A stretch of 40,562 nt of DNA from a virus. Made by a program: the position numbers and the translations under genes. Where the stretch lies: IMG/VR virus record IMGVR_UViG_3300030328_004625, positions 1-40,562 of that record. One strand, written 5' to 3'. Below are positions 12,341 through 33,230 of the stretch, piece after piece. The notes under the pieces were generated by a model. It saw only the letters and a program-made list of their open reading frames with translations. It ran no database searches and was not told the DNA's origin. Numbering within the stretch: the stretch's first letter is position 1; each line of letters opens with the position of its first letter.

Positions 12341-13401
12341 AAATAGCAGAAATATGGGATTTTACGGCGTATCTTGAGTCCTTTTATATAAAGGATGGAA
12401 AAGCTATGTCGTTTAAAACAAACGAACCTTATTCATATAGAAATTCAGTTTCACCTGAGTGTTTTTTACAAGGTCCAGTTTATTCACATCTTTGGGAAGG
12501 TTCTTACTTCCTTAATTTAGAAGAATACGATGGAGTGCCACCATACGATCCTGATGTAAATCTTGTTTTTTATGTTAACGAGAGAGTTGGATTGATGAAT
12601 GAACATTACGATAAATATTCAGTTGAGAGTATTCGTAAACAATTTCCAAATGCTGTAATTATAGGACAAGTAAAAGAAGTACCACCATCTTTTAACTCAG
12701 GTGATGTTTATTCTGATATACCAAGAAGACAAGTTAGACCAGAAAGACCTGAAAATAGAATTAGATTTTTTAACGATTGTGATTTTGTAAATGTACCAAC
12801 AACTCCTGATGGTCTATATGCTAAAGATGAATATTTTGTTGAGTTACAAAAACACCTAAATAAAGAAATTAAATATACTCCAGGTCCTACTAATGTGGAT
12901 TATGTATTTGACAATTATTATTCTAACGAGAAACTTAATTCTATATTTTACTACACACCACATCAACATGAACGTAGAGGTGAAACAGAAAAGTTTGCTA
13001 AATATTTAGGAAGCAAGTATGGGTTAGAGGTTTTTAGTAAACCTATACATGATAATCAACCATTCGATTATCTTTCAAGTCATGATTTTATAAAGTTGTG
13101 GAGTCCACATATATTTCATATTAACGTAGATCCTATGAAAATGTATCCTGGTCAACAATGTAGACAAGTTGCTGCGGTTGGTTCTATAAACATTGGTGGG
13201 GAGAATGACTCACATCACAGATTGTATCCTGACGCGTCTGGTTGTGACCTTAAAAAACTTGAGGATATATTCGAAGCTTATTTAAAAGATGGTCGTAGAA
13301 GATTTGGAGCTATTGACTATGCTTACAATAAAGTTAATGAATTATTTGGTTTTAATACAGTAAGAAAAATATTAGAGGAGACGTTTTTAAATGTTAATTA
13401 A
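12337..13401 (+). CDS. Putative GT-B-like glycosyltransferase
   Basis: A 354-aa protein with a TTG start in a TTGA overlap and AAGGAAG (12324-12330) as ribosome site. A Rossmann-like half gives VFYVNERVGLM and AVIIGQVKE. The second half has SIFYYTPHQHERRG and a C-terminal donor-site-like stretch around AAVGSINIGGEND. These features suggest a GT-B transferase, but no family signature is clear. Position between an epimerase and RmlC supports a sugar role. It overlaps the next gene by 11 nt. Confidence 0.6.
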   Translation: MKIAEIWDFTAYLESFYIKDGKAMSFKTNEPYSYRNSVSPECFLQGPVYSHLWEGSYFLNLEEYDGVPPYDPDVNLVFYVNERVGLMNEHYDKYSVESIRKQFPNAVIIGQVKEVPPSFNSGDVYSDIPRRQVRPERPENRIRFFNDCDFVNVPTTPDGLYAKDEYFVELQKHLNKEIKYTPGPTNVDYVFDNYYSNEKLNSIFYYTPHQHERRGETEKFAKYLGSKYGLEVFSKPIHDNQPFDYLSSHDFIKLWSPHIFHINVDPMKMYPGQQCRQVAAVGSINIGGENDSHHRLYPDASGCDLKKLEDIFEAYLKDGRRRFGAIDYAYNKVNELFGFNTVRKILEETFLNVN

Positions 13402-13867
13402 TGGTGTTATAGTAAAACAACCAGATGTCTTTACTGATTACAGAGGTGATTATTGGACAACTTGGAAAAAAGAAGAATGGGATATGGAATTTAACCATGA
13501 TAAAGTATCCACTTCAGGTTATGGCGTGTTACGAGGAATACATGGTGATACTAAATCTTGGAAGTTAGTTACTTGTTTACAAGGTTCACTTTACTTTGTG
13601 CTTGTGGATAACAGACCAACTTCCGATACATACATAATGTGGGAGTCTTTGATTTTAGATGATAAGACTAGAAAACAAGTCTTGATTCCACCTGGTGTTG
13701 GTAACGGACATTTGGTTATGAGCGATAGTTGTGTATTTCATTACAAATGGAGCTATGAGGGTGAATATCCTGACGTTGAAGAACAATTTACAATCAAATG
13801 GAATGACCCGATGATTGGGGTTGATTGGCCTGTAGATAATCCAATACTATCTAAGAGGGATAAGTAG
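13391..13867 (+). CDS. RmlC-like dTDP-4-dehydrorhamnose 3,5-epimerase family
   Basis: A 158-aa cupin-fold protein. FTDYRGDYWT resembles the RmlC N-terminal F-x-D-x-RG. GVLRGIH (45-51) carries the catalytic His51. The core then runs WKLVTCLQGSLYFVLVD, VLIPPGVGNGHLV, a Tyr-rich segment (Tyr118, Tyr122, Tyr126) and IKWNDP (Asp139). RmlC enzymes epimerise C3 and/or C5 of 4-keto-6-deoxy sugars. This member is slightly shorter than typical (about 180 aa). The nucleotide carrier cannot be told; GDP sugars are plausible given the GMD genes here. It overlaps both neighbours (11 nt and 1 nt). Confidence 0.9.
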   Translation: MLINGVIVKQPDVFTDYRGDYWTTWKKEEWDMEFNHDKVSTSGYGVLRGIHGDTKSWKLVTCLQGSLYFVLVDNRPTSDTYIMWESLILDDKTRKQVLIPPGVGNGHLVMSDSCVFHYKWSYEGEYPDVEEQFTIKWNDPMIGVDWPVDNPILSKRDK

Positions 13868-14787
13868 TGAGACAATGGGGTAAAACTTATAAACGTAGGT
13901 TTCACATCTATGAGGATATCAGAAAAAGTCTTGACCTTGGAACTGATAATGGTATTCAATTGGAAATAAATTTAAATCGTGACCAAGAGTGTTCTTTACA
14001 GATGGCTCTTGAAAATTATATCATAACTACATTAAACTCTTTTTACGATAAAAAATTTAAAAAGGGAAATACTAATTTTTTGATAGACTATAGGGATGAT
14101 ATTTTAGGATTACCTAACAGAACACCTAATGGAGCATTTTATCCAAAGAAAGAAAATATAAAAGAGTATAACATATTACAGAGTATAGTTAATTCGACAA
14201 TAGTAGAGACTGGTCTTATAGACCAAATAGAATCATATGATATGTGTACTGTTAGGATAGTCGATGGTAGAAGAACAGATTTAGATAAAAGAAATTCTGC
14301 TACCGTAAAACTTCATTCTGATGCTTGGTCTGGTCAGTATGGAGACGCTATGGTTACTACTGCTTTACTTGGAGACAAAACAACCTCGTTAGAATTTTGG
14401 AAACCAATAGGTATGAGAGATGAATTTTATGACACGTTACCGAACTATGAAGATGGAACAAATTTATATGATTATCCTGAGTATTTAGGTAAACTAAATT
14501 TCGGTTGTATGACAATTTTTGACCATCAATGTTTACATAGAACATTAAAAGAAGATGGTGGTTTAAGAGTGTCCATAGATTTTAGTATAAAACTAGCATG
14601 TACTGAGTTATTAGATAAAAACGTATACTTAAAAGATGTTAAACATAGACCAAAAGAAGAGGTACTAAAAGTAGGTAATGAAACTTTAGTCGAAGCAACT
14701 GAGACACTACAAGAGTGTTATGATAAATTTAAAAATGATAAGTATGACAAAATACCAACTGCACATATAAATGATGTAATATCATGA
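13867..14787 (+). CDS. 2-oxoglutarate/Fe(II)-dependent oxygenase-like protein (StrG-like)
   Basis: A 306-aa protein with a GTG start in a TAGTG overlap. A jelly-roll iron site is visible as LHSDAW (His150-x-Asp152) and FDHQCLHRTL (His224), with Arg234 in LRVSIDF as the likely 2-oxoglutarate carboxylate ligand. The long helical N-terminus resembles StrG-type proteins of aminosugar clusters. It could hydroxylate or oxidise a sugar or nucleotide sugar. It overlaps the next oxygenase gene by 4 nt. Confidence 0.8.
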   Translation: MRQWGKTYKRRFHIYEDIRKSLDLGTDNGIQLEINLNRDQECSLQMALENYIITTLNSFYDKKFKKGNTNFLIDYRDDILGLPNRTPNGAFYPKKENIKEYNILQSIVNSTIVETGLIDQIESYDMCTVRIVDGRRTDLDKRNSATVKLHSDAWSGQYGDAMVTTALLGDKTTSLEFWKPIGMRDEFYDTLPNYEDGTNLYDYPEYLGKLNFGCMTIFDHQCLHRTLKEDGGLRVSIDFSIKLACTELLDKNVYLKDVKHRPKEEVLKVGNETLVEATETLQECYDKFKNDKYDKIPTAHINDVIS

Positions 14788-15422
14788 CTAACGAAGAACA
14801 AATAAAATATCATTTTGAAAATAATGGGATGGTTGTTTTTGATGATTTCTTAGAACAAGAGACTTTCGATGAAGTTTCTAACTTTTGGAATCATGAAAGT
14901 TTCAAAACTGATAATCACGAAGAAAAAGACTTTTACTCTACAAAATGTGTAGGTTCAACTTTTGATAGAAACGATGTACATTGGCCAGATAAAAATGAGG
15001 TGTATAAGTGTAATGTTAAGTTGTCCAAAGAAGTTCCAAAACTACCAAAGATAGATAAAATTATCAGAGAAAATATTACATCAGTAGCAGAATTTATTTT
15101 ACAAAGGAAAGCTAATTTAATATCATCTCATGCTAATATTTATGAAAAAAATGGAGATAGTTATGCTAGAGCTCACAGAGATGGTTCAACTTGGAATGCT
15201 GCTATTGGTTTTATAGTTTATATGAATGGGACAAATTGGAAATATGATTGGGGTGGATTACTACACTATTTGAAACCACCAGATAATGAGATAATGACTA
15301 TTTTACCAAAGTCAAATAGGTTAGTTATTATAAATCACGGTATGGATATGTCACATTGGATAACACCAACTGCCACTTGGGCAAAAGAGGACAGAAAAAC
15401 TTTAATTGGAATGTTTAGATAA
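14784..15422 (+). CDS. 2-oxoglutarate/Fe(II)-dependent oxygenase (P4H-like)
   Basis: A 212-aa protein starting at ATGA. AHRDGSTW gives His131-x-Asp133, WGGLLHYL is the conserved strand, and MSHWITP gives His191, with Arg204/Lys205 as the 2-oxoglutarate anchor. The layout is that of prolyl-4-hydroxylase-type small oxygenases. It is the second of two adjacent oxygenases, followed by a 10-nt gap and the PLP enzyme. The substrate is unknown; a sugar is likely from context. Confidence 0.85.
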   Translation: MTNEEQIKYHFENNGMVVFDDFLEQETFDEVSNFWNHESFKTDNHEEKDFYSTKCVGSTFDRNDVHWPDKNEVYKCNVKLSKEVPKLPKIDKIIRENITSVAEFILQRKANLISSHANIYEKNGDSYARAHRDGSTWNAAIGFIVYMNGTNWKYDWGGLLHYLKPPDNEIMTILPKSNRLVIINHGMDMSHWITPTATWAKEDRKTLIGMFR

Positions 15423-15432
15423 GAGGTATAAC

Positions 15433-16596
15433 ATGGGATTTTCTTGGCAATTAATAAACGATAGTATCACAGATGGTGATAGAAAAGCTATGACAGATTT
15501 TATTAACACACCAAACCAAAAATTTACTAATGGTGAGAAGTGTAAAGAATTTGAAATGGAGTGGTCTAAATACATAGGTTGTGCACATAGTACATATGTT
15601 AATTCAGGTGCTTCAGCTAATTACATTATGGCGTCAATCATGAAAGAACAGAAAGGTGTTGGTGAAGTTATTGTTTCACCTTTAGGTTGGGTTTCTGATG
15701 TTTCACCACTTGTTAACTTAGGTTTTACTCCTGTATTCGTTGACGTAAGTATGGATAATATGTCAATTACACTTGATAACATAAAGAAAGCTGTTACAGA
15801 TAAGACTGTAGGAGTATCAATAGTTCATGTTTTAGGATTTAATGCTATAACGGATGCTATGGTACATTTCTGTAGAGACAATGATTTGTTTTTGATTGAG
15901 GATTGTTGTGAGGCTCATGGTGCGACTCATAAAGGAGATAAGGTTGGTATATTCGGAGACGTATCTAACTTCTCTTTTTACTTTGGACATCACATAACTA
16001 CTATCGAAGGTGGTATGGTATGTACTAACGATTATAGGTTATGGGATTACGCTAAATTATTTAGGTCACATGGAATGACAAGAGAGGCGTCAAGTGAGGT
16101 TCAAGAACAATACGAAAGAAGTAGACCTGATTTGAATCCGTTGTTTACCTTTGCTGTGCCTGGATATAACTTTAGGAATCAAGAGATAAATGCTGTATTG
16201 GGTTTAGAACAGATAAAAAGATTAGATTTTAATTGTAAAAAACGAAGTGAGAATTTTAATTATTGGTTGGATAATTTAGATGAGAAGAAATTCTTCGTTA
16301 ATTACGAACAGAATGGTAATAGTAATTTTGCATTACCATTAATTTTAAAAGAAAAAGACTTGGAATTGTTCAAAAAATGTTGTATATTATTAGACGAAGA
16401 AAAAGTCGAATATCGAGTGGGAACTGCGGGTGGTGGTAATCAGGCAAGACAACCATACTTAGACAAGTATGATTTTGTAGCACATGACCTATCAAACGTA
16501 GACCACATACATGATTTTGGATTATACATTGGTAATCATCCTGAATTATCTTTGTATGAGATTGGAAGTTTAACACATAAACTTAACGGAGTTTAA
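15433..16596 (+). CDS. PLP-dependent ColD/RfbH-type nucleotide-sugar 3-dehydratase (DegT fold)
   Basis: A 387-aa DegT/DnrJ/EryC1/StrS-fold protein. The start is ATG 15433 behind AGAGGTATAAC; a TTG at 15406 in frame is inside the preceding gene. LIEDCCEAHGA carries Asp157, the PLP-nitrogen partner. The segment FSFYFGHHITTIEGG has His186-His187 where aminotransferases have the PLP-binding Lys (SFxxxK-x6-GG). FRSHGMTRE and VPGYNFRNQEINA match ColD/RfbH-type dehydratases. Family knowledge: ColD (GDP-4-keto-6-deoxymannose) and RfbH/E1 (CDP sugar) remove the 3-OH. Inference: it makes a 3-deoxy sugar rather than an aminosugar. It is 1 nt from the next gene. Confidence 0.88.
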   Translation: MGFSWQLINDSITDGDRKAMTDFINTPNQKFTNGEKCKEFEMEWSKYIGCAHSTYVNSGASANYIMASIMKEQKGVGEVIVSPLGWVSDVSPLVNLGFTPVFVDVSMDNMSITLDNIKKAVTDKTVGVSIVHVLGFNAITDAMVHFCRDNDLFLIEDCCEAHGATHKGDKVGIFGDVSNFSFYFGHHITTIEGGMVCTNDYRLWDYAKLFRSHGMTREASSEVQEQYERSRPDLNPLFTFAVPGYNFRNQEINAVLGLEQIKRLDFNCKKRSENFNYWLDNLDEKKFFVNYEQNGNSNFALPLILKEKDLELFKKCCILLDEEKVEYRVGTAGGGNQARQPYLDKYDFVAHDLSNVDHIHDFGLYIGNHPELSLYEIGSLTHKLNGV

Positions 16597-16597
16597 A

Positions 16598-17137
16598 ATG
16601 AGTAAAAAAGCACTAATATTAACTTGGGAAAAGTATCAAGACCACGAAGTTATCTATCCTTATTATAGGGTACAAGAAAGTGGATACGAAGTTGATATCA
16701 TGTCTAATAAAGTAGGTATGATTCACGGTATACTTGGAACATATAATGAATGTACTAAGTCAGTATTTGATTTGGATGATGATGAAAAGTTTGAAAACTA
16801 TATGCATGATTATGATTTGTTGATTATTCCTGGTGGTGTCAAATCCCTTGAAAAACTAAGACAAGAAGAATCAGCCTTAAATTTCATAAGAGAGTGGGAT
16901 GCCTTAGGTAAAACTATTGGTTCAATCTGTCATGGTGGTCAGATGTTAATATCTGCTGAAATAGTTACAGGTCGTGATGTCTCTGGTTATTATAGTATCA
17001 AAGATGACTTGATTAATGCGGGTGGTAATTTTGTTGATGCAGAATATGTAGTTTCTGATAATCTTGTTTGTTGCCCACATTACAAATGGATGGGACAATG
17101 GATGAATAAGGTTATTGAGATAAACAATGCCGTATGA
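16598..17137 (+). CDS. DJ-1/PfpI-superfamily protein
   Basis: A 179-aa flavodoxin-like protein. LLIIPGG (74-80) and GSICHGGQML (108-117) with the nucleophile-elbow Cys111 and following His112 are the DJ-1/PfpI signature. The conserved acidic residue is in QDHEV (Glu17). Members act as deglycases, glyoxalases, proteases or chaperones; none can be chosen here. A place between a sugar dehydratase and a cupin is unusual. GGAG precedes the ATG, and the end overlaps the cupin gene by 11 nt. Confidence 0.88.
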   Translation: MSKKALILTWEKYQDHEVIYPYYRVQESGYEVDIMSNKVGMIHGILGTYNECTKSVFDLDDDEKFENYMHDYDLLIIPGGVKSLEKLRQEESALNFIREWDALGKTIGSICHGGQMLISAEIVTGRDVSGYYSIKDDLINAGGNFVDAEYVVSDNLVCCPHYKWMGQWMNKVIEINNAV

Positions 17138-17813
17138 AAAAACAGTAGTTTCAAAACCGTGGGGTTATGAGTATCTCGCTTATCAAAACGAGAAAGTAGC
17201 CCTATGGTTTTTGTACATTGGACATGACCAACAGACATCTATGCATTGTCATCCAAACAAAACGACTGGATTAATATTGTTAGATGGTGAGGCTGAAATA
17301 TCTTTCTTAGGTGATTCCTTTAATCTAAAACCTGTCTCCAAGACAATGATTAGAAAGGGTTTGTTTCATTCCACAAAAGCAACATCTGAAAATGGTGCTT
17401 GTGTATTTGAGATAGAAACACCAGTAGATAAACATGATTTAGTCAGACTCGAAGATAAATACGGTAGAGAGGGAAATCCATACGAAGATAGTACACATGA
17501 GACGCCGAAACAAGATGATTGTCTTTGGATAGAAGATGGAGACAAAGAGTATAAATTTAGTAATTGTGATATAAGAGTTGAGACAATAAACGATGTAAGT
17601 CAGTTCAATGGAAAACACGATGATGAAAGTATAGTATTTTTAGATGGTGGTATTGAAGATGGAGAAAGTAATATGGTCGCACAAGCTGGTGATGTGGTTA
17701 CCTGTGCAATAATTAAAAGATTGATTAAACTATTTCCACATATACAAACAAACACTTTAATAATGACAATTAAAAAACAAGGAAAGATAAGTCATCTTTA
17801 CGATTATGGATAA
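17127..17813 (+). CDS. Cupin-domain protein (phosphomannose isomerase type II-like)
   Basis: A 228-aa protein. KPWGYEYL (10-17) is like the entry to the cupin of type II mannose-6-phosphate isomerases. The metal-binding strand has MHCHPNKTTG, and a second motif HSTKAT is followed by EIETPVDKHDLVRLEDKYGR. This last segment recurs in sugar-cluster cupins. A further beta-rich C-terminal part could be a second, degenerate cupin. It may isomerise or epimerise a sugar, but the reaction is not identified. It overlaps the E1 alpha gene by 8 nt. Confidence 0.75.
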   Translation: MPYEKTVVSKPWGYEYLAYQNEKVALWFLYIGHDQQTSMHCHPNKTTGLILLDGEAEISFLGDSFNLKPVSKTMIRKGLFHSTKATSENGACVFEIETPVDKHDLVRLEDKYGREGNPYEDSTHETPKQDDCLWIEDGDKEYKFSNCDIRVETINDVSQFNGKHDDESIVFLDGGIEDGESNMVAQAGDVVTCAIIKRLIKLFPHIQTNTLIMTIKKQGKISHLYDYG

Positions 17814-18642
17814 GATAGAAGTATTTAAAAAAGCCTCATTATGTAGAAACTTTGATGAGGTGGTATTTAACAAATTACAAGATAAAACTATTCAGTATCC
17901 AACTTATCTTTCAGTTGGTCAAGAGTTTATACCTGCTACTATTGCTCAATATATGGAAGAAACATTTCTTGATATGGAACCAGATATTTTTATTCAACAT
18001 AGAGGTCATGCAACTTATCTATCGTTTGGTGGTAGTGTTGAGGGATTGGTCAAGGAGTTGTTAGGTAGAGAAGATGGTTGTACAAATGGAATGGGTGGTT
18101 CGGCATCAATACATAGTAAGGAAAAGAACATATATGGACATGATGGTTTAATGGGTAGTCAAGTTCCTATCGCTGTAGGTTCTTGTTATGCGTCCCAAAG
18201 ACCAACAATTGTGTTCATGGGTGATTCTTCTGCGGAAGAAGATTATGTCTTTAGTAGTATAGGGTGGGCAGTTACAAAGAATCTACCTATACTTTTTGTA
18301 GTAGAAGATAATAATCTATCTATACTCACAGAAAAGAAGGTAAGACGCAGTTGGGATATGCATGAAGTAGCTCGTGGTTTTGGTATGGAAGCTCATGATT
18401 TACCAGACAATCCATATGAAATAGCCATGTATCTTAAATTAGGTGTTTTTGAAAAACCAATGTTGTTAAACATAAACACGATAAGAAAGTATTGGCATGC
18501 TGGAGCTGGTATAGATGATGTTGATGTCTTTGATAGATATGAACATGAGATGGGACAACTTGGTGACGAAGGTAAAAAGATACACGAACAAAATAAAAAA
18601 TTAGTAACGGAATTATGGCAAAGACAGTTAGAGAAACAATAA
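17806..18642 (+). CDS. ThDP-dependent E1 alpha-subunit-like enzyme
   Basis: A 278-aa protein resembling the alpha subunit of pyruvate/branched-chain dehydrogenase E1. YPTYLSVGQEF and HRGHATYLSFGG match the conserved N-terminal part. The ThDP/Mg site is GDSSAEED (139-146) with Asn169/Asn170 30 residues later (canonical GDG-x(26-30)-NN; the third Gly is Ser here). It forms a pair with the E1 beta-like gene, overlapping by 28 nt. No E2/E3 genes are seen. Inference: it transfers a two-carbon unit to a sugar, as proposed for the E1-like pairs of avilamycin and aldgarose pathways. Confidence 0.87.
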   Translation: MDKIEVFKKASLCRNFDEVVFNKLQDKTIQYPTYLSVGQEFIPATIAQYMEETFLDMEPDIFIQHRGHATYLSFGGSVEGLVKELLGREDGCTNGMGGSASIHSKEKNIYGHDGLMGSQVPIAVGSCYASQRPTIVFMGDSSAEEDYVFSSIGWAVTKNLPILFVVEDNNLSILTEKKVRRSWDMHEVARGFGMEAHDLPDNPYEIAMYLKLGVFEKPMLLNINTIRKYWHAGAGIDDVDVFDRYEHEMGQLGDEGKKIHEQNKKLVTELWQRQLEKQ

Positions 18643-19523
18643 AAGAGATAACAAGAAAACACCTTACTGAAAAAAATGGTTTGTGTTTTGGTCAATGTCT
18701 AACCGCAGTTGGTTGGGTAGGTGGAACTTTACCTGAGATGTATGAAGATGAAGGGATGGTAGAGGTTACTACGGCTGATGTAGCAAATGGTGGATTCGTT
18801 GTTGGTGCTGGACTACAAGGTATTAGACCGATTTATGTGGTGAGATATCAAGGATTTCAATGGTACAATTCGCCCATGATAGTGAATTATGCGTCAAAAT
18901 CAAAAGAAGTTTGGGATAGACCTTGTCCGATATTTATCAGAAGTATTGCCATGGAAGGTGGTATGGGACCTGTAGCTGGTTCATCACATCATTCATTGTA
19001 TCAGAGAATGCCAGGTACAAAGATAATATCACCAATGACACCAAAGGAATATGAGTTTGCTTATAAAAGTTTTATGAAAGAAGATGATGTATATTATGTC
19101 TCAGAACATAGAAGAAGTTATGATAATACAGAAGAGTTAGGAGATGTATTTTATGATGAACCTGATGTTGTTCTATTTCCAATTTCAATTACAAGATTTG
19201 ATGCTGAAGAAGCTAGAAAAGAATTAGAGAAACAAGGAATAAAGGCTAGTATAATTCATCAGTTATGGATTAAACCATTTCTTTTTACAGAAATATGGAG
19301 AAGACAATTAAATAATTCAAAGTTTGGTGGTATCGTATTGGATGATGATTACGAACAAGGTGTTGCTAGTAGTATTGCACATCGTATGATGTTGGAATCT
19401 GATAAGAAAGTATATACAATGGGATTGGAAAACAGAACTGCTGGTTTTCATAAGGATGTAGATAACTTACCACCTACACCTAAAAAAATAATTGATAAAG
19501 TTTTAGAGTTAGTTAATGGCTAA
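18615..19523 (+). CDS. ThDP-dependent E1 beta-subunit-like enzyme
   Basis: A 302-aa transketolase-like protein. TTADVANGGFVVGAGLQG and IRPIYVVRYQGF match the beta-subunit pyrimidine-domain region. SSHHSLYQRMPG is the conserved His-rich loop before the phosphate contacts, and the C-terminal domain has IVLDDDYEQG. It starts 28 nt inside the alpha gene, so the two are probably made together and form a heterotetramer. Phage genomes rarely carry such a pair; the sugar neighbours argue against central metabolism. See the alpha subunit for the proposed role. Confidence 0.87.
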   Translation: MAKTVRETIKEITRKHLTEKNGLCFGQCLTAVGWVGGTLPEMYEDEGMVEVTTADVANGGFVVGAGLQGIRPIYVVRYQGFQWYNSPMIVNYASKSKEVWDRPCPIFIRSIAMEGGMGPVAGSSHHSLYQRMPGTKIISPMTPKEYEFAYKSFMKEDDVYYVSEHRRSYDNTEELGDVFYDEPDVVLFPISITRFDAEEARKELEKQGIKASIIHQLWIKPFLFTEIWRRQLNNSKFGGIVLDDDYEQGVASSIAHRMMLESDKKVYTMGLENRTAGFHKDVDNLPPTPKKIIDKVLELVNG

Positions 19524-20208
19524 CGTATCTAATTATTCATATTGGAATAAGTGGGCAGTACCTATTTGGTATAGTAAAGATCCTGATTACGATGACATAA
19601 AAAATGATGCTATCACAGAATGTCTTCAGTTTCATACTGATAATAAAAATAGAACAGAAGTTGCTCATGGTATAAAAACTAATCTGTATGAATCTGAGTT
19701 TGATTTTTTTCAAAAGGCAAGACATAAAAATTATAAATCGATAGGTAAAATAGAACAATATATTAAACAACAATTTTTGTTTTGTTTTTTAGACTACTTT
19801 CAAAATAATTATTATCCAGAGGGAGTATCCGAAACGATGGATGGTCTCGAAGAAAAAGATATAAATATTAATCTAAGAGATTCGTGGGTTCATATTGCAA
19901 ATGGTAAAGGTAGTTGGCATGGTAATCATAGACATCCGATGACATCTTGGGGTGGAATATATTACTTGAAAATTGATGGAGTTAATGAAAATAATGGTGG
20001 TAAAAATACTATTAGTCAACCAGTTGATAATCAGTATATAGACTTTGGTAATTTTTTTGAACATCAGTACGCTGTATGGTCACCACCTATGGATAATGGT
20101 GGATGTCTATTTTTTCCAGCACATCTAAGTCATAATGCACAACCTTATTTTGGAGAAGAAGACAGAATAGTAATCGCAACAAACATAATAGTGGGGAAAA
20201 ATGTATAA
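19516..20208 (+). CDS. Putative 2OG-Fe(II) oxygenase (TIGR02466-like)
   Basis: A 230-aa protein. DSWVHIANGKGSWHGNHRHP has the HxHP metal pair (His138, His140) that replaces HxD in this family. GGIYYLKI is the next strand, GGCLFFPAHLSHNAQP holds the distal His206, and DRIVIATN holds Arg217. Most likely a non-haem iron oxygenase acting on a cluster intermediate. It overlaps the E1 beta gene and the following SDR gene by 8 nt each. Confidence 0.78.
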   Translation: MANVSNYSYWNKWAVPIWYSKDPDYDDIKNDAITECLQFHTDNKNRTEVAHGIKTNLYESEFDFFQKARHKNYKSIGKIEQYIKQQFLFCFLDYFQNNYYPEGVSETMDGLEEKDININLRDSWVHIANGKGSWHGNHRHPMTSWGGIYYLKIDGVNENNGGKNTISQPVDNQYIDFGNFFEHQYAVWSPPMDNGGCLFFPAHLSHNAQPYFGEEDRIVIATNIIVGKNV

Positions 20209-21118
20209 AGGTAAAAACGTATTAGTAGCTGGTGGTAATGGTTTGATAGGTAAACAACTTGTAAAGTTGTTAGAAGATAGAGAAGCTAGTGTAAAGGTGG
20301 TAGATAAAAATTTAGATCCTGAAATGGATTTGACAGATTATGGTAAATGTTTAGATGCTTGTTATGATATGGATTATGTATTTAATCTGTTATGTATCAA
20401 GGGTTCACCAAAAGCTATGCAAGAAAGACCAGCAAGTCATTTAGTTCCAATGTTAAGATTTAACACAAATTTGATGGAAGCTGCAAGGGAAAGTGGAATT
20501 AACAAATATTTATATACGAGTTCTGTTGCTGTGTATGAGCCAGACGAAGTCTTTAAAGAAGAGGATGTTTGGAGAACATTTCCATCACCAAATGATAGAT
20601 TTGCTGGATGGGCTAAAAGAATTGGTGAATTACAGGCAGAATCATATGAAATTGAATATGGGTGGAATGGTATATCCATTGTGAGACCTGGTAATACTTA
20701 TGGTCCACATGATGACTTTGATTCGGATGGTGCTATGGTTGTTCCATCTTTGATAAAAAAAATACTTAGTGGTGAGAAACAAATAACACTATGGGGAGAT
20801 GGTTCAAATGTCAGAGACTTTACACATTGTAGGGATATTGCTAAAGGTATGATGTTAGTGATGGAAAAATCACCAGGAGCTACAAGTCCTGTAAACTTAG
20901 GTAGTGGTGGTGGATTTTCAATTAAGGAATTGGTTGAAGTTATTTTAGAAAATGTAGATGATAAACCTGAGGTAATTTGGGACACAACAAAACCATCTGG
21001 TGATAAGGTTAGAATTATGGACATTCGTTTGGCAAAATCATTTGGATACGAACCAAGTGTTTCATTAGAAGAAGGTGTTAGAGAAACTATAAATTGGTAT
21101 AGGAATGAAAAAATATAA
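20201..21118 (+). CDS. NAD-dependent epimerase/reductase (extended SDR) with Tyr-less YxxxK site
   Basis: A 305-aa extended SDR. VAGGNGLIGKQL (9-20) binds NAD(P), YTSSVAVYEP is the Ser/Thr strand, and RPGNTYGPHDDFD with RDFTHCRDIA are typical of GDP-sugar epimerases/reductases. The expected YxxxK reads AGWAK (Ala135-Lys139), so the catalytic Tyr is absent, while Phe134 is one place off. The codons are unambiguous. It may be a reductase or epimerase using another acid, or inactive. The radical SAM gene starts within its last 14 nt. Confidence 0.85.
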   Translation: MYKGKNVLVAGGNGLIGKQLVKLLEDREASVKVVDKNLDPEMDLTDYGKCLDACYDMDYVFNLLCIKGSPKAMQERPASHLVPMLRFNTNLMEAARESGINKYLYTSSVAVYEPDEVFKEEDVWRTFPSPNDRFAGWAKRIGELQAESYEIEYGWNGISIVRPGNTYGPHDDFDSDGAMVVPSLIKKILSGEKQITLWGDGSNVRDFTHCRDIAKGMMLVMEKSPGATSPVNLGSGGGFSIKELVEVILENVDDKPEVIWDTTKPSGDKVRIMDIRLAKSFGYEPSVSLEEGVRETINWYRNEKI

Positions 21119-23156: not shown

Positions 23157-23823
23157 ATGTGTACTGATAACTGCCTCAAGTAAAGGTCTTGGTAAGGCAA
23201 TAGCAAGAGAATTTGCTTTTCATGGTTATCAAATAATATTACATGGTAGAAACGAAAAAAAGTTACACGATTTTAAGTTCGAAATAAATTCACAAGTTGT
23301 AGATATTGTGGTTGGTGACTTAAGGTCAGAGTTAGTATTGGATGAACTATATAGAGCCAGTAGAAGACACTCTATAAATGTTTTAGTCAATAACGCTGCT
23401 ATACCTTGTTATGGGTTACCTTTAGATGAAATGAAACCAATGCAGGTGTATGAAAGCATTGAGACTAATCTTCTATCACCAATTAGATTAACACAAAAAA
23501 TTTATCCTTTATTAAAAGAACAACGACATGGTTCAATCATAAACATTAATTCTATAGTCGGTAAAGAACCAAAGAAGTATAGAAGTGTTCATTCTGCTAC
23601 CAAATGGGGTTTGAAAGGTTTTACAAAGAGTCTAAGAATTGAGGCGGAAGATTATAACGTTAAATTAATCAACGTCTATCCATCACAGATTAAAACTGTA
23701 AAAGAACATACTTTTGGACTTGAATCATATGATGTTGCAAAACAAATATATAACGAACATCAAACAGGTAAGGATTGGGATGAGTTAATAATTGATGGAA
23801 GACCAGAGGAGTTTAGACCATGA
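23122..23823 (+). CDS. Short-chain dehydrogenase (classical SDR) with His for catalytic Tyr
   Basis: A 233-aa classical SDR. The GTG start at 23122 has AAGGA (23111-23115) 6 nt upstream. TASSKGLG (17-24) binds NAD(P), NNAA (90-93) is the structural motif and Ser144 (NINSIVG) is the catalytic Ser. The YxxxK site reads HSATK, with His157 replacing Tyr and Lys161 kept. The rest of the fold is intact. It may still reduce a keto group by a changed mechanism, or only bind. It overlaps the radical SAM gene by 35 nt and the PhyH gene by 4 nt. Confidence 0.88.
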   Translation: MNHLGATQDTNKCVLITASSKGLGKAIAREFAFHGYQIILHGRNEKKLHDFKFEINSQVVDIVVGDLRSELVLDELYRASRRHSINVLVNNAAIPCYGLPLDEMKPMQVYESIETNLLSPIRLTQKIYPLLKEQRHGSIININSIVGKEPKKYRSVHSATKWGLKGFTKSLRIEAEDYNVKLINVYPSQIKTVKEHTFGLESYDVAKQIYNEHQTGKDWDELIIDGRPEEFRP

Positions 23824-24590: not shown

Positions 24591-25419
24591 TTGTTATGAT
24601 TTTGATGGTAAGTTAAAAAAGATATTTGGTCAAGATAAATTATTTCTTGATGATTTGGAGTCAACTTGGTTAGGTTCTTTTAATCGAGCTATTAAAAAAT
24701 TCTTGATTGAAAAAAATATTAGCGAAACAGATGATTTTGATTTAAATCAAATACATAATCATGTGGGTTTAGAATATCAGGTAACTGATACTAATGGTGA
24801 TGGTATTAGTAAATTAGGACAAATGTTTTATGATATAAAAGATGAAAGTTATTTTGAAATGTATCATAAGTTTTTAAAAGAAATAAGAGATGAAGTTTTA
24901 AAGTGTGATTTTTACTTTCAAGAAATACCAACAATTAGATTTTGGTTTAAAGGGCAAAAAACAAAACACAAATATCACTCGGATATACATTTAGGACATC
25001 CACCAGAAGAAATTAATTTGTGGTGGGCATTTACAAATAATGAACAAACAGGATTTGTAGTTGGTGATAATCTAAAAGATTGTGAAGACTGGTATTCAAA
25101 ATATAATTTTGACAGAGATAGTTTTTTAAAAGACGCTGAATCACCAACACCTATTGAAGAATTTAATTCTTTTGGAGAGGGTATTACATCCGAAGTTGAC
25201 TCTAATAGAATTATCATGTTTGATTCGAGAATGATTCATTCTGCTGTTGATAGAAGTTTAGATGATACGACACGAGTTTCTATGGATATTAGACTTAATC
25301 CCGTAGATGAATTTAAAGATGGTTACACTGGTCTTGGTAGAATGAAAGCTCAATTTAAACCTGGTGGTAAGTATGGTTATCACTCAAAATCAATTGACCA
25401 ATTATGGAGTGAAAGATGA
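24583..25419 (+). CDS. 2OG-Fe(II) oxygenase-like protein
   Basis: A 278-aa protein with a TTG start supported by AGAGG (24573 region) about 7 nt upstream. The iron site is YHSDIHLG (His132, Asp134) and MIHSAVDRS (His219), with Arg231 in TTRVSMDIRL. ITxEVDSNRIIMFDS is the strand before the distal His. The overall layout is like the StrG-like protein at 13867. It follows directly on the PhyH gene and precedes a sugar SDR gene at an ATGA overlap. Confidence 0.8.
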   Translation: MSNCYDFDGKLKKIFGQDKLFLDDLESTWLGSFNRAIKKFLIEKNISETDDFDLNQIHNHVGLEYQVTDTNGDGISKLGQMFYDIKDESYFEMYHKFLKEIRDEVLKCDFYFQEIPTIRFWFKGQKTKHKYHSDIHLGHPPEEINLWWAFTNNEQTGFVVGDNLKDCEDWYSKYNFDRDSFLKDAESPTPIEEFNSFGEGITSEVDSNRIIMFDSRMIHSAVDRSLDDTTRVSMDIRLNPVDEFKDGYTGLGRMKAQFKPGGKYGYHSKSIDQLWSER

Positions 25420-26384
25420 AAAAGATATTAATATGTGGTGCGTCTGGTTTTATAGGTAGAAACTTATTAGATAATTTTACAAGAGATAGACACTTTTCTG
25501 AAGAGGAATTTGAAGTTAAAGCTGTATGGCATAAGAACGCTAGTATAACTGAACTTTATCGTGAAGTTGAATGGGTACATGCTGATTTGACAAACTCAAA
25601 GGATGTTAAGAGAGTTATTACTTCGGATGTAGATGTTATCTTGCAATATGCTGCCGTAACTTCTGGTGCTAAAGATATAATCAGTAAACCATATGTCCAT
25701 GTGACTGATAATGCTGTAATGAATTCATTGTTGATGAGAGAGGCATTTGAAAAAGAGGTTGGTCATTTCATCTTTCCGAGTTGTACTCTGATGTATCAAT
25801 CAAGTGATGAGTTATTAAAAGAAACTGATGTAGATGAGAACGTTGATATATTTTCTAAATATTATGGAGCTGGTAACACCAAACTTTATCTTGAAAAGAT
25901 GTGTAAATTTTACTCTGATTTAGGTAAAACTAAATTTACTGTTTTGAGACAATCTAATATTTACGGATCCTATGATAAATTTGATTTAGAACGTAGTCAT
26001 GTTTTTGCTGCAACAATAGTAAAGGTTGTAAATGCTATTGAAGAAGTTATAGTGTGGGGTGAAGGAAAAGAAAAGAGAGACTTACTTTATGTGGGGGATT
26101 TGGTTGATTGTGTTGAAAAGGTTATGAGTCAAAAGTCACAGTTTGAACTGATAAATGTCGGTTTAGGTGATGGAATAAAAATATCTGATTTGGTGAAAAA
26201 AATTGTTGATATTTATAAAAAAGATTTGTATATTACATATGATAAAACCAAACCAAGTTTTGGTAATAAGTTAGCACTTGACATAACGAAAGCAAAAAAG
26301 TTATTTGGTTGGACTCCTAAAGTATCTATTGAACAAGGTATACAAAAAACATTGAATCATTATAAAGAGGTTATAGATGGGTAA
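25416..26384 (+). CDS. NAD-dependent nucleotide-sugar epimerase/reductase (extended SDR, unusual active site)
   Basis: A 322-aa extended SDR, closest by eye to GDP-fucose synthase-type proteins. CGASGFIGRNL (7-17) binds the dinucleotide; PSCTLMY is the Ser/Thr strand; RQSNIYGSYDKFD and RDLLYVGDLV are family segments; LFGWTPKVSIEQG is the C-terminal signature. In the active site KYYGAGNTKLYLEK, Lys156 is preceded four places earlier by Ala152, with Tyr at 149/150, so a regular YxxxK is not present. It may be a 3,5-epimerase/4-reductase or 4-reductase for a keto-deoxysugar. It overlaps the next SDR gene by 8 nt. Confidence 0.85.
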   Translation: MKKILICGASGFIGRNLLDNFTRDRHFSEEEFEVKAVWHKNASITELYREVEWVHADLTNSKDVKRVITSDVDVILQYAAVTSGAKDIISKPYVHVTDNAVMNSLLMREAFEKEVGHFIFPSCTLMYQSSDELLKETDVDENVDIFSKYYGAGNTKLYLEKMCKFYSDLGKTKFTVLRQSNIYGSYDKFDLERSHVFAATIVKVVNAIEEVIVWGEGKEKRDLLYVGDLVDCVEKVMSQKSQFELINVGLGDGIKISDLVKKIVDIYKKDLYITYDKTKPSFGNKLALDITKAKKLFGWTPKVSIEQGIQKTLNHYKEVIDG

Positions 26385-27348
26385 TATTTTAGTAACGGGT
26401 GGTACAGGTTTTGTCGGTAGTCATATGATTGATTACATATTAAAATATGCGATAAGACCAGACCAAAAGATATATTGTACAAAACGATGGATGGAAGATA
26501 CTAAAAATGTTGACCACATCGATGATGATAGACTTGAGTTTGTTGATTGTGATTTACTTGATGCTCATAGTATTCGAAGGGCAGTAGAGGTTTCTAAACC
26601 AGAAAAGGTATTTCATTTTGCTGCTCAAAGTTTTCCTGAAGTTAGTTTTAAGATGCCAGTTATAACTTTACAGACAAACACACTTGGAACTACACACTTA
26701 TTAGAGGCAATAAAAGAATCAGATTACGATCCTGTCATAGTCAGTATATCAACAAGTGAAGTTTATGGTATGCCAGAAGAGGACGAAGTTCCAATCAAAG
26801 AAACCAATCCTATCAGAGCTGCAAATCCATACTCGATATCAAAAGTCGGTCATGATTTAATGTCTCAGTATTATCATAAGGCACATGGTATGAAGATTAT
26901 CATAACTCGTATGTTTAGTCATGAAGGTGCTCGTAGGGGTAAACAATTTGCATTATCGTCTTTTGCATATCAGATTGCTAAAGCTGAAAAACTCGTGGGT
27001 GAACAATTTATATATCATGGTAATTTAGACTCAACAAGAACCTATGCTCACGTTGATGATGCGATAAGTGCTTATTGGGTGTGTTCTAATAGTAAAAAGT
27101 TTGGAGAGGTTTACAACATAGGTGGTGAACAAACTTGTACTGTTGGTGATGCCTTAGATAAGTTAATCAGTATGTCTACTAAAAAAGATTTGAAAAAGAA
27201 ATTAGATGAGGCTAGACTTAGACCTACGGATATTACATTACAGATACCAGATACATCTAAGTTTAGACATGAGTTTGGGTGGACACCAATGAAAAACTTG
27301 ACTAATGTTTGTGAGGACTTATTAAAATATTGGAGAAGTAAAGTATGA
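26377..27348 (+). CDS. GDP-mannose 4,6-dehydratase-like SDR
   Basis: A 323-aa extended SDR. VTGGTGFVGSHM binds NAD; HFAAQSFPEVSF and ISTSEVYG, with Ser/Thr and acidic residues, fit 4,6-dehydratases. NPYSISKVGHD is an intact YxxxK, and RMFSHEGARRGKQF plus YHGNLDSTRTYAHVDDA closely track the GMD pattern. It differs from the second GMD-like gene at 32268, so the two may use different sugars (mannose versus heptose is one possibility). AGAGGTTATAG precedes the ATG. Confidence 0.88.
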   Translation: MGNILVTGGTGFVGSHMIDYILKYAIRPDQKIYCTKRWMEDTKNVDHIDDDRLEFVDCDLLDAHSIRRAVEVSKPEKVFHFAAQSFPEVSFKMPVITLQTNTLGTTHLLEAIKESDYDPVIVSISTSEVYGMPEEDEVPIKETNPIRAANPYSISKVGHDLMSQYYHKAHGMKIIITRMFSHEGARRGKQFALSSFAYQIAKAEKLVGEQFIYHGNLDSTRTYAHVDDAISAYWVCSNSKKFGEVYNIGGEQTCTVGDALDKLISMSTKKDLKKKLDEARLRPTDITLQIPDTSKFRHEFGWTPMKNLTNVCEDLLKYWRSKV

Positions 27349-28536: not shown

Positions 28537-28985
28537 TGTTACAACATGGAGAAATAAAAACAGCAGTCTACATGGAAGAGGCTTGTCACATTCCAAAGGG
28601 TTGGGGTAAGGAAATAATCATAGAGAACAATGAATTGTATTGTGGAAAGATATTAGTATTTAACAAGGGTTGTAAATTTTCAATGCACTACCACATGAAA
28701 AAAGATGAGACTTGGTGGGTAGAAGAAGGTGAATTTGCATATACATTTATTGATACTGAAAATGCCTTACCAACAACATTGAGGTTAGAACCTGGTTGGG
28801 TAGTTAGACAATATCCTGGTCAACCACATCAATTAGAAGCTTTAACAGATGGTAGAATATTTGAAGTATCTACACACCATGAAGATTCAGATTCTTATAG
28901 AGTATTACCAGGAGATAGTCAAACAGAAGTGTGGAAGAGTGTAGAAGAGTTTGAAAGGGATAACGGATTAGGAGATAAAAAATGA
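28536..28985 (+). CDS. Cupin protein, mannose-6-phosphate isomerase type II-like
   Basis: A 149-aa protein. The start chosen is ATG 28536 in a TAATG overlap; an in-frame ATG-less extension back to 28494 lies inside the previous gene. GWGKEIIIENN, then MHYHMKKDETWWVEEG (His pair and Glu for metal) and YPGQPHQLEA give the two cupin motifs. The fold matches the isomerase domain of GDP-mannose pathway enzymes. Directly upstream of an HldE-type kinase, it could act on a sugar phosphate such as sedoheptulose 7-phosphate or mannose 6-phosphate (inference). Confidence 0.8.
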   Translation: MLQHGEIKTAVYMEEACHIPKGWGKEIIIENNELYCGKILVFNKGCKFSMHYHMKKDETWWVEEGEFAYTFIDTENALPTTLRLEPGWVVRQYPGQPHQLEALTDGRIFEVSTHHEDSDSYRVLPGDSQTEVWKSVEEFERDNGLGDKK

Positions 28986-29737
28986 AAGTATTAATAATAG
29001 GAGATAGTTGTAAAGATATTTTTGTGTATGGTTACATCAATAGATTGACACCAGAGGCACCTGTTCCTGTCTTTAATCCTACGAGAGAACTAAGTAATGA
29101 TGGGATGGCAAAGAATGTGGCTAATAATGTTGAGGCTTTAGGATGTACAATATACACCATAACAAATCCTAATAGTATTAAAAAAGTACGATATGTGGAC
29201 GAAAAATCAAAACAATTGGTTTTAAGGGTTGATGAACATGATTATTGTGATAGAGTTGCTGTTGAATTACCAAAGGGTAACAAGTGTAAAATAGGATTGG
29301 GTGGAGACGTAGAGGTAGGTGCTATAATCATATCAGATTATTGTAAAGGTTTTTTACATGAAGATGATATAGAATATATTGCCAAAAACAATATCAATGT
29401 ATTTGTTGACACTAAAAAAGAACTTGGTGATTGGATAAACGATGTTGATTATTTAAAAATAAATTCATTAGAGTACGAGTCGAATAAAAAGTTTTTTAAA
29501 GATAACGAGATAATAAATAAAACTATCGTCACTAAAGGTAACGAGGGTTGTCTTTTTCAAGGTAGAATATATCCAACAGAGGATGTTCTTGTAAAAGATA
29601 TTTCAGGTGCTGGAGATACATTTATTGCTGGTTTAGTTGTAAAATATTTAAAAACAAATGACATTGAAAAGGCTATCGATTTTGCTCAAGAGTGTACCAA
29701 AATTGTGGTACAAAAACATGGGGTTTCTACTGTATGA
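28982..29737 (+). CDS. HldE/RfaE-type sugar kinase (PfkB fold), kinase domain only
   Basis: A 251-aa PfkB/ribokinase-fold protein. IGDSCKDIFVYG (6-17), RLTPEAPVPVF (21-31) and the NVANNV segment are diagnostic of the D-glycero-D-manno-heptose 7-phosphate kinase domain of HldE. SDYCKG and the C-terminal DISGAGDTFIAG (Asp212 as catalytic base) complete the PfkB signature. It is shorter than the usual roughly 320-aa kinase domain and lacks the nucleotidyltransferase domain of bifunctional HldE. Starts and ends in ATGA overlaps. Confidence 0.9.
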   Translation: MKVLIIGDSCKDIFVYGYINRLTPEAPVPVFNPTRELSNDGMAKNVANNVEALGCTIYTITNPNSIKKVRYVDEKSKQLVLRVDEHDYCDRVAVELPKGNKCKIGLGGDVEVGAIIISDYCKGFLHEDDIEYIAKNNINVFVDTKKELGDWINDVDYLKINSLEYESNKKFFKDNEIINKTIVTKGNEGCLFQGRIYPTEDVLVKDISGAGDTFIAGLVVKYLKTNDIEKAIDFAQECTKIVVQKHGVSTV

Positions 29738-31271: not shown

Positions 31272-32271
31272 TATATTAAAAAGAAAGTATGTAATTGGAA
31301 CTCATGTGATGTGGTTCGAAATAGAAATGTATGCTGACTTTATAAAGGGTATGGTTAATCTTTTAGAGACAGTAGAAAACACAGAGAATGTAACTATAGA
31401 CTTATGTTTTAATATGTTGCAACATTTTGAAAAAGTTGATGAAGATAAAATAAAAAAACATGAGTTGTATATAAAATTCAAAAGGGGTGTTGCTATATTA
31501 GAAGAGATGGGTTTCATTGTTAACTATGAAGTAAAAGACAAAGACGATGAGTTTTATTTTCATGCGGATTATAGAAGAGATTTAAATTACAACTATTGTA
31601 AAAAAGTGGATTATGTGATGTGGGGTGAAACAGATAGTTTTTTTCCACGAGAGGCATTTCAAGTAGTAGAAAGACTAGCAGAGTATACAGACGAACAAAA
31701 TATTCACAGATATTTATTAAGTTTTTCGGATAGAAAAATGTGGGATGCGAGTTGGGATCCATTAGTTCATGTGGACTATCGTGATATAGAATTTGTTGAT
31801 GATGATAAGGGACATTTAAATCCTAATCAAGCAAAGTCACCGATGTCAATAGAAAAAATGAATACGATAAATGGTAGGGCAGATGATTTTGATTTTTCAT
31901 ACATTACCCATCCCAAACTGAGTGGTGCTTGTTTGGTATTATCATCAGATTTTATCAAGTCTGGTATCAACATTCCATCTTGTTTATTATATAATGATGA
32001 TGAGGGATTATCAATCATGTCTCATAAATTATTAGGACAAGACTATTTACAATTTGTGTGTCAGAATATCTTACATGTTCATGCTAGAAGACATCCACAA
32101 AAGAGAATGTATGTAAAGAATGAGGATAATCCATATTCATTTATCAATCAAAAGAACGATAGTTTTCAACAATTTTTAAAACTATCAAAAGAGAACATAG
32201 ATAAATTAATATCAGGTAAAGGTAAGTTTAAAGAGTATGATGATTTGAAAAAAATATTGGAGTCAAAATGA
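31264..32271 (+). CDS. Putative GT-A-like glycosyltransferase
   Basis: A 335-aa protein. VDYVMWGETDSFFPREAF has an acidic cluster of DxD type, and a later HVHARRHPQKR segment is basic. The mixture of alpha/beta core and the neighbours (GT8-like gene and GMD) suggest a glycosyltransferase, but no family is recognised. It overlaps the GMD gene by 4 nt. Confidence 0.6.
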   Translation: MSDILKRKYVIGTHVMWFEIEMYADFIKGMVNLLETVENTENVTIDLCFNMLQHFEKVDEDKIKKHELYIKFKRGVAILEEMGFIVNYEVKDKDDEFYFHADYRRDLNYNYCKKVDYVMWGETDSFFPREAFQVVERLAEYTDEQNIHRYLLSFSDRKMWDASWDPLVHVDYRDIEFVDDDKGHLNPNQAKSPMSIEKMNTINGRADDFDFSYITHPKLSGACLVLSSDFIKSGINIPSCLLYNDDEGLSIMSHKLLGQDYLQFVCQNILHVHARRHPQKRMYVKNEDNPYSFINQKNDSFQQFLKLSKENIDKLISGKGKFKEYDDLKKILESK

Positions 32272-33230
32272 AGAGAGTATTAATTACAGGTATTAACGGA
32301 ATGGATGGTAGTCACCTTGCTGACTTTCTTTTGGGAAAGGGGTATGAAGTCTATGGTATGGAGAGAAGAACATCAAGTCCAAACAGAGTCAACACTGGAC
32401 ATTTAGAGGGTAAGATAACATTTTTAAATGGTGACTTGACAGACCAAAATTCATTGGTTAGGTGTTTAGTAAAATCAAATCCACATGAGGTTTACAATCT
32501 TGCTGCTCAATCATTCGTGGGTGAGAGTTGGAACACGCCTGAACAAACTGGTGATGTTACTGCTCTTGGTGCCTTAAGAATGTTAGAGGCTGTAAGAGAG
32601 TCAGGAATTAAAGATATAAGATTCTATCAAGCGTCAACCTCTGAACTTTATGGTAGAATGATTGAGAATCCAGCAAACGAGAACACACCTTTCTATCCTC
32701 GTTCACCCTATGGAGTTGCTAAATTATATGGTCATTGGATTACAAAGAACTATAGGGAATCATATGATATGTTTAATGTTAGTGGTATTCTTTTTAACCA
32801 TGAGTCAGAAAGACGAGGTATTGAATTTGTAACAAGAAAGATTACTGATGGTGTTGCTAAAGTATACTTAGGATATGAAGACCACATAAGGTTAGGTAAC
32901 TTAGATTCTAAAAGGGATTGGGGATACTCACCTGATTATGTTAAGTCAATGTGGATGATGTTACAACAAGATGAACCTGATGATTATGTTATCGCTACAG
33001 GTGTAGAACATACCATTGGAGAATTTTTAGATGTCGCCTTTAAACGAGTTGGTATAGATGATTGGAGTAACTATGTTGTACAAGACGAGAGGTACATGAG
33101 ACCAGCAGAAGTTGCTGTTCTGTGTGGTGATTCATCTAAAGCTCGTGATGTTTTAGGATGGAAACCAGAAACATCTTTTGAACAGATGGTACATAATATG
33201 GTAGACCACGATATAGGTTCATTGTCATGA
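32268..33230 (+). CDS. gmd: GDP-mannose 4,6-dehydratase
   Basis: A 320-aa extended SDR with the full GMD pattern: ITGINGMDGSHLADFL (6-21), NLAAQSFVGESW, QASTSELYG (Thr/Ser/Glu of the dehydratase site), FYPRSPYGVAKLYGHW with an intact YxxxK, NHESERRGIEFVTRKI and LGNLDSKRDWGYSPDYV. It makes GDP-4-keto-6-deoxymannose, the entry to fucose, perosamine, colitose or rhamnose. A heptose variant is also possible. Length is slightly under E. coli Gmd (373 aa). It starts and ends in ATGA overlaps. Confidence 0.95.
   Translation: MKRVLITGINGMDGSHLADFLLGKGYEVYGMERRTSSPNRVNTGHLEGKITFLNGDLTDQNSLVRCLVKSNPHEVYNLAAQSFVGESWNTPEQTGDVTALGALRMLEAVRESGIKDIRFYQASTSELYGRMIENPANENTPFYPRSPYGVAKLYGHWITKNYRESYDMFNVSGILFNHESERRGIEFVTRKITDGVAKVYLGYEDHIRLGNLDSKRDWGYSPDYVKSMWMMLQQDEPDDYVIATGVEHTIGEFLDVAFKRVGIDDWSNYVVQDERYMRPAEVAVLCGDSSKARDVLGWKPETSFEQMVHNMVDHDIGSLS

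Follow-up and report, generated by a model that had tools for sequence, protein, structure and literature searches.

A ColD-type dehydratase and an E1-like thiamine diphosphate enzyme in the glycan island of a marine virus suggest a route to a carbon-branched deoxysugar

What might a marine virus make with a ColD-type sugar dehydratase and a neighboring pair of proteins that resemble the two subunits of a dehydrogenase E1 component? The question is raised by IMG/VR record IMGVR_UViG_3300030328_004625, all 40,562 bases of which were studied and are referred to here as the window. The source is a marine virus of bacteria, a T4-like phage. T4-type replication genes, read by eye, are located at the left end of the window, and the closest match to a polymerase fragment is from Microcystis phage Mel-JY01 (48%). 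A glycan island spans about 7.2 to 38.4 kb. Within it, a ColD-type enzyme, a cupin, and the E1alpha and E1beta subunits were all found as intact open genes at 15433-19523, as listed in a preliminary description of the locus, which overlooked the DJ-1/PfpI gene between them. The probable product of the island is a carbon-branched (C-branched) deoxysugar destined for a glycan of the surface or of the virion.

Thiamine diphosphate (ThDP) enzymes are already known to branch keto sugars of O-antigens and antibiotics. A 2025 review names three ThDP superfamilies with this activity, the YerE-like decarboxylases, the two-subunit alpha-keto-acid dehydrogenases 2 (alpha-KADH2), and the split transketolases, the last by proposal only, and counts viruses among the unexplored places for such enzymes (PMC12247030). 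No phage branched-sugar pathway appeared among the papers listed by searches of an open-access library, which is not proof of absence.

The evidence that carries this reading is the linkage between ColD-type dehydratases and ThDP enzymes in viral contigs. A ThDP enzyme is no more than 12 kb away from ColD in 59 of the 60 ColD-seeded loci whose flanks extend 3 kb or more in each direction, versus none of the 11 equally flanked ColD loci that were found with GDP-mannose 4,6-dehydratase (GMD) as the seed (Fisher p 5e-12, kinship ignored). This result bears out the coupling that the preliminary description had proposed. Each seeded scan of viral contigs comprised the best 80 matches, out of 560 relatives in the case of ColD. 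Because the alignment used as the ColD seed came from loci found with E1beta, it favors the window type; despite this bias, 45 of the 59 well-flanked positives have ThDP enzymes of other kinds. In the lone exception (locus L158) GMD directly precedes ColD, a short-chain dehydrogenase/reductase (SDR) resembling fucose synthase follows it, and there is no ThDP enzyme.

The preliminary description had also assigned GMD to the pathway as its 4,6-dehydratase. GMD and several SDR genes are indeed present in the block, but GMD is 12.7 kb downstream of E1beta, and GMD of more than 35% identity was found in only 4 of the 80 ColD-seeded loci, versus 56 of 80 for the type of the other 4,6-dehydratase-like SDR in the window. 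The GMD-seeded scan detected a ThDP enzyme of the kinds considered here in 1 of 80 loci (L266, the same contig as ColD-seeded L144) and none in 79, a control in which other ThDP enzymes could have escaped detection because the query proteins were few. DegT-fold proteins with the catalytic His of ColD (His-type DegT) are present in 15 GMD-seeded loci, 14 of them without a ThDP enzyme, and several GMD-seeded ColD loci show the colitose set of GMD, ColD, and reductase. In the named cyanophage ACG-2014f, consecutive genes encode GMD, a fucose-synthase-like SDR, and a His-type ColD, and the ThDP queries have no match within 21 kb. GMD was rejected as a pathway partner on the basis of the locus counts and the GMD-linked ColD genes that lack a ThDP partner.

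Four kinds of ThDP enzyme were found near ColD. Over the 80 ColD-seeded loci, the window-type pair is present in 16, a smaller "mini pair" in 48, a split transketolase in 3, and an acetolactate-synthase-like protein in 3 together with a mini pair and in 2 alone; 8 loci have none. In seven of these eight, ColD is less than 3 kb from an end, and L108 shows a cut mini pair. The mini pair (about 208 plus 180 residues) resembles pyruvate dehydrogenase (PDH) E1, has only the cofactor and pyrimidine domains, and keeps the ThDP-activating Glu in 9 of 9 rows. Many ColD-seeded loci have the order RmlC, ThDP enzyme, ColD, SDR, and among 70 loci with a two-subunit pair the pair directly precedes ColD in 44 and is within 3 kb upstream in 8 more. 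On a tree of 152 ColD-type proteins, in which several seeds were mixed and each locus was labeled by any pair within it, the ThDP kind switches at least 27 times among loci with one pair kind, and one mini-pair locus falls within the window's own group. Members of all three ThDP superfamilies of the review are found near viral ColD, which makes C-branching of a keto sugar, either derived through ColD or related to such a sugar, the most likely function. A C-branched deoxysugar is the best reading because of this linkage, 59 of 60 versus 0 of 11, together with the three superfamilies of the review.

The window version belongs to a conserved unit. The window E1beta found 35 viral loci in IMG/VR, near copies included, and an alignment of viral E1beta proteins, used as the query against bacterial genomes, found 44 loci, of which 18 are from Pelagibacteraceae (SAR11) and 7 from candidate phyla radiation (CPR) genomes; the rest are from Thiothrix-like cells, in which E1beta identity reaches 76%, SAR116, and marine Betaproteobacteria. 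When neighboring genes were clustered over these 79 loci, 75 had E1beta, 74 E1alpha, 71 the cupin, 68 DJ-1, and 58 DegT proteins, some genes being missing because contigs are cut. Therefore, the constant unit comprises DJ-1, cupin, E1alpha, and E1beta. A chance neighborhood was ruled out, as the genes co-occur in most of the viral and bacterial loci. In the ColD-seeded set, DJ-1 and the cupin accompany 15 of the 16 window-type pairs (the other locus is cut) and none of the mini pairs; five E1beta-seeded loci (L028, L034, L041, L042, and L048) have both kinds of pair. The unit is rare, occurring in 7 of 247 SAR11-order genomes, 2 of 398 genomes from the phylum to which the Thiothrix-like cell belongs, and 1 of 286 in a CPR phylum (threshold E 1e-60, with the genomes at the center of each comparison counted in). 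A 128-residue HAD-like gene, named by eye and without a Pfam or NCBIfam match, is inserted in the unit in 26 of 79 loci; the window lacks it.

Residues in both partner proteins are invariant among relatives: Cys111 of DJ-1/PfpI in 70 of 70 rows and His40, His42, and His81 of the cupin in 72 of 72. The cupin matches no Pfam or NCBIfam family. Its predicted model has a mean predicted local distance difference test (pLDDT) score of 91, and a fold search with it returned many cupins and pointed to no function. DJ-1 and the cupin probably supply or process the donor or the product of the E1 pair.

The dehydratase itself matches the Pfam family DegT_DnrJ_EryC1 (4.9e-67), and its best solved-structure match is the Escherichia coli pyridoxamine-5'-phosphate dehydrase WbdK/ColD (2gms, 1.6e-51). 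In its motif, YFGHHITTIEGG, His replaces the pyridoxal phosphate Lys (codon 15988-15990), which upholds the earlier assignment to the ColD type, with the DegT fold judged from sequence only. PDB entries 3b8x, 2r0t, and 3gr9 deviate in alignments from 2gms at the first His of the motif, and 3gr9 deviates also one residue before it. Among DegT rows from the E1beta-seeded loci, the ColD His is found in 57 of 61 and Lys in the other 4. Of the E1beta loci, 31 of the 35 viral ones and 24 of the 44 bacterial ones have a His-type DegT by tblastn; by reading frames the counts are 31 of 35 and 23 of 44, or 30 of 35 and 14 of 44 within 6 kb.

The E1 pair has the alpha and beta subunits and the ThDP/Mg motif expected of a two-subunit alpha-KADH2 enzyme, and the ThDP/Mg residues Asp140 and Asn169 of E1alpha are invariant (75 of 75 rows). 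It departs from such enzymes at the ThDP-activating Glu of PDH, where the window E1beta has Asp55, an Asp in 80 of 80 aligned rows. The predicted E1beta model (mean pLDDT 83.6, residues 115-122 below 50) superimposes on human PDH E1beta (3exe_B) over 297 residues (Z 30.3, root mean square deviation 2.5). A tree of 55 domains, each from E1beta or its equivalent, unites window-type E1beta in a single clade (SH-aLRT 100) whose stem measures 2.78 changes per column, with Asp in 28 of 28 window-type rows and Glu in 27 of 27 others. The placement of this clade beside the mini pair is unsure because long branches meet there, as the program warned; on sequence, window-type E1beta forms a deep, separate group whatever its exact placement. 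No lipoyl E2 or E3 family was found among the 39 window proteins scanned against Pfam. The tree placement and the missing E2/E3 families led us to reject a host PDH or acetoin dehydrogenase identity, in agreement with the preliminary description.

In a named-phage collection, 2 records match E1beta and 4 match E1alpha at 23-25% identity; these matches were set aside as short unannotated records or acetoin genes of bacterial look. For example, OR850426.1, OR847274.1, and PQ520092.1 are short, unannotated, phage-labeled records that match dehydrogenase E1 genes and resemble bacterial fragments. E1beta matches 69 plasmid records, all below 60% identity, with the 30 listed at 21-27%. In seven plasmid surroundings, four E1beta genes adjoin annotated E2 genes, one is haloarchaeal with an E2 gene nearby, one is in an unannotated Streptomyces record, and one is in an Azospirillum glycan locus. 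The last (Azospirillum oryzae, L094:8911-12079) combines an E1 pair with a PfkB kinase, an SIS protein, and two DegT genes. Its pair keeps the ordinary Glu and is possibly another candidate for sugar branching.

Table 1. Positions of the unit and of sugar genes of the island in the window
Feature	Position	Strand	Remarks
RmlC-like protein	13391..13867	+	PF00908; proposed epimerase
ColD-type DegT-fold enzyme	15433..16596	+	ATG at 15433; proposed NDP-4-keto-6-deoxyhexose 3-dehydratase (NDP, nucleoside diphosphate)
DJ-1/PfpI protein	16598..17137	+	1.4e-33 (Pfam); constant partner of window-type E1 pair
Cupin	17127..17813	+	predicted fold; constant partner of window-type E1 pair
E1alpha-like subunit	17806..18642	+	PF00676, 6.2e-19; ThDP/Mg motif GDS...DNN
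E1beta-like subunit	18615..19523	+	PF02779 5.2e-10, PF02780 7.8e-6; Asp55 codon 18777-18779
Extended SDR, GDP-fucose synthase-like	20201..21118	+	without epimerase Cys/His; proposed ketoreductase
Second fucose-synthase-like SDR	25416..26384	+	keeps Cys/His; proposed epimerase/reductase
4,6-dehydratase-like SDR	26377..27348	+	PF16363; proposed first step
PfkB kinase	28982..29737	+	recurrent neighbor
GMD	32268..33230	+	NCBIfam 415.7 vs cut-off 415 bits, narrow pass

From the genes, the motifs, the predicted folds of E1beta and the cupin, and the linkage observed we infer a series of reactions, including their order, the sugar carrier, the carbon attacked, and the donor. The GDP carrier, the C4 site, and the pyruvate donor given in the preliminary description are tentative assignments. 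The 4,6-dehydratase-like SDR would yield an NDP-4-keto-6-deoxyhexose, from which the ColD-type enzyme would remove the 3-hydroxyl. The RmlC-like enzyme, which in relatives adjoins the ThDP enzyme, would epimerize the carbon next to the ketone. The E1 pair would bind ThDP, decarboxylate a 2-oxo acid, and transfer the acyl carbanion; the sugar ketone is proposed as its destination because the pair has no E2 partner. An SDR would then reduce the newly formed ketone. The two fucose-synthase-like SDRs differ at a Cys and a His position, which we take to be the epimerase residues. Relatives of the SDR next to E1beta have Cys in 0 of 163 and His in 1 of 162 matches, and relatives of the second SDR have Cys123 in 70 of 71 and His195 in 73 of 73. 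This pattern suits one putative reductase and one putative epimerase/reductase and leaves the order of the steps open.

Other genes of the island are also recurrent or adjoin the module. A B12-binding radical SAM protein (21105-23156) has the KedN5 C-methyltransferase family as its best NCBIfam match (250 bits, cut-off 700), and clustering placed its relatives at 4 viral and 10 bacterial loci that have the DJ-1/cupin/E1 unit. Judging from this neighbor, the sugar may be C-methylated too. Oxygenases resembling the 2-oxoglutarate-Fe(II) or PhyH types are located amid the sugar genes (13867-14787, 14784-15422, 19516-20208, and 23820-24590), the first of them named by eye without a Pfam match. A 133-residue protein without a Pfam family (28135-28536) recurs in 58 of 80 ColD-seeded loci and, among the 35 viral loci with the unit, in 27. 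The PfkB kinase has a weak likeness to the heptose-7-phosphate kinase domain (115.6 versus a cut-off of 345 bits).

Several observations weigh against a branched sugar. An Asp in place of the activating Glu may signal weak, altered, or lost ThDP chemistry. Among the 44 bacterial loci with the unit, 20 have no His-type DegT, and 18 of the 70 two-subunit pairs, all of them mini pairs, are not located just upstream of ColD. When 8 kb flanks and a 9-kb radius are applied, the linkage becomes 49 of 51 versus 0 of 1 (p 0.058). The SDR that keeps the epimerase/reductase-like residues could reduce C4, in competition with branching, and nearby heptose genes point to other chemistry. In the scan seeded with mini-pair alpha, 43 of 80 loci have His-type DegT and 37 do not, mostly having RmlC-like and SDR genes. 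Therefore, the core appears to consist of a ThDP enzyme along with RmlC-like and SDR genes, and ColD looks like a frequent yet optional partner of it.

The heptose genes lead to an alternative in which the ThDP pair acts like a transketolase or 1-deoxy-D-xylulose 5-phosphate synthase to make an unusual ketose or heptose precursor, which a neighboring kinase and isomerase activate while ColD serves another sugar of the glycan. Of the 44 bacterial loci, 35 group an HddA-like kinase with the unit, and the PfkB kinase is present in 25 of 35 viral loci. Some loci have GmhA- and HddC/GmhB-like genes, the Azospirillum locus unites SIS, PfkB, and E1 genes, and the fused mini pair of the cyanophages S-SM2 and P-TIM68 is located beside genes for a kinase and a phosphoheptose isomerase. 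We nevertheless regard this alternative as unlikely, as it leaves unexplained why ColD is rarely without a ThDP enzyme outside GMD loci and why an acetolactate-synthase-like enzyme occupies the same place. It is also conceivable that the window encodes an ordinary colitose-like route of GMD, ColD, and a reductase, with an unrelated E1 pair, since GMD, ColD, and fucose-synthase-like SDRs are all present. That explanation is improbable: the GMD-linked ColD loci (L158, 14 of the 15 GMD-seeded loci, and ACG-2014f) lack ThDP enzymes, the ThDP-linked ColD loci mostly lack GMD, and the epimerase residues are gone from the SDR beside E1beta.

Two further explanations deny the pair a role in sugar chemistry. 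The invariant Asp55 and the very long E1beta stem would fit a pair that has lost ThDP activation and become a binding or regulatory protein. There is little probability of this, given that the ThDP/Mg motif of E1alpha is invariant, that Asp retains an acid, and that the pair occupies a place common to ordinary Glu-bearing ThDP enzymes. A pyruvate or acetoin dehydrogenase E1 with an auxiliary role in redirecting the metabolism of the host could be suspected because the best family models for the pair are those of pyruvate dehydrogenase E1, but these score far under their cut-offs. Its E1beta clade is apart from six plasmid-borne dehydrogenase E1beta proteins, the surroundings of its relatives are glycan genes, and no E2/E3 family accompanies it in the scanned window proteins; this explanation is highly improbable.

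A C-branched deoxysugar would place the window beside several known systems. Like the locus for yersiniose A, a Yersinia O-antigen sugar, it has by gene content a 3-dehydratase and a ThDP carboligase together, with a reductase, in a surface-sugar locus. The likeness extends to viral ColD loci in which an acetolactate-synthase-like protein, by analogy a possible counterpart of YerE, directly precedes ColD (L100:8142-9962, L167:1017-2885, and L170:8113-9984). YerE differs in that it consists of one polypeptide from the decarboxylase superfamily and its substrate is a CDP sugar (PMC12247030), whereas the ThDP enzyme of the window is an E1-like pair of two subunits, accompanied by DJ-1, a cupin, and a ColD-type dehydratase. 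The aldgarose enzymes, KbDH-alpha/beta, AviB1/B2, and Pau11/12, set beside the window by description only, share an E1-like pair without E2/E3 in a deoxysugar locus and are described as two-carbon branching enzymes acting at C3 or C4. Published proposals of branching concern AviB1/B2, Pau11/12, and EvdU5/EvdS3 (PMC4753412, PMC4425429, and PMC10338323); no literature linking aldgarose with pyruvate dehydrogenase was found in the open-access literature. The aldgarose, KbDH, AviB1/B2, and Pau11/12 enzymes belong to antibiotic producers, and the window pair differs from them by its Asp for Glu and its extra partners.

Other comparisons are less close. The split-gene transketolases of miharamycin and amipurimycin biosynthesis, whose role is still pending according to the review (PMC12247030), resemble the split transketolase near ColD in three ColD-seeded viral loci, a kind that is not in the window. 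The colitose pathway (GMD, ColD, and ColC) shares with the window a ColD homologue with the catalytic His, but in colitose-like viral loci GMD adjoins ColD and there is no ThDP enzyme. The fused mini pair that cyanophages S-SM2 and P-TIM68 have in a glycan island, named "transketolase central region-containing protein," is of another lineage than the window pair, with Glu kept and no ColD match in the regions examined. These cultured phages (L338:12001-13209 for S-SM2 and L339:12049-13194 for P-TIM68) have it annotated only as transketolase central region.

The same gene logic with exchangeable enzymes repeats in viruses and in SAR11 surface-sugar loci. A tentative extension is that marine phages and their hosts share a cassette of general use for making C-branched deoxysugars. 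In it, four exchangeable ThDP carboligases, each perhaps adding a different branch, would be placed beside one ColD-type dehydratase and alter surface glycans. The window version would be a new ThDP family that uses Asp rather than Glu, and DJ-1 and the cupin would be dedicated to it, their task being to make or finish an uncommon donor. If sugar branching does take place, phages would have a testable route for varying host or virion glycans, and these loci would be a source of new carboligases that make tertiary alcohols, one family of them with Asp at a position that is nearly always Glu.

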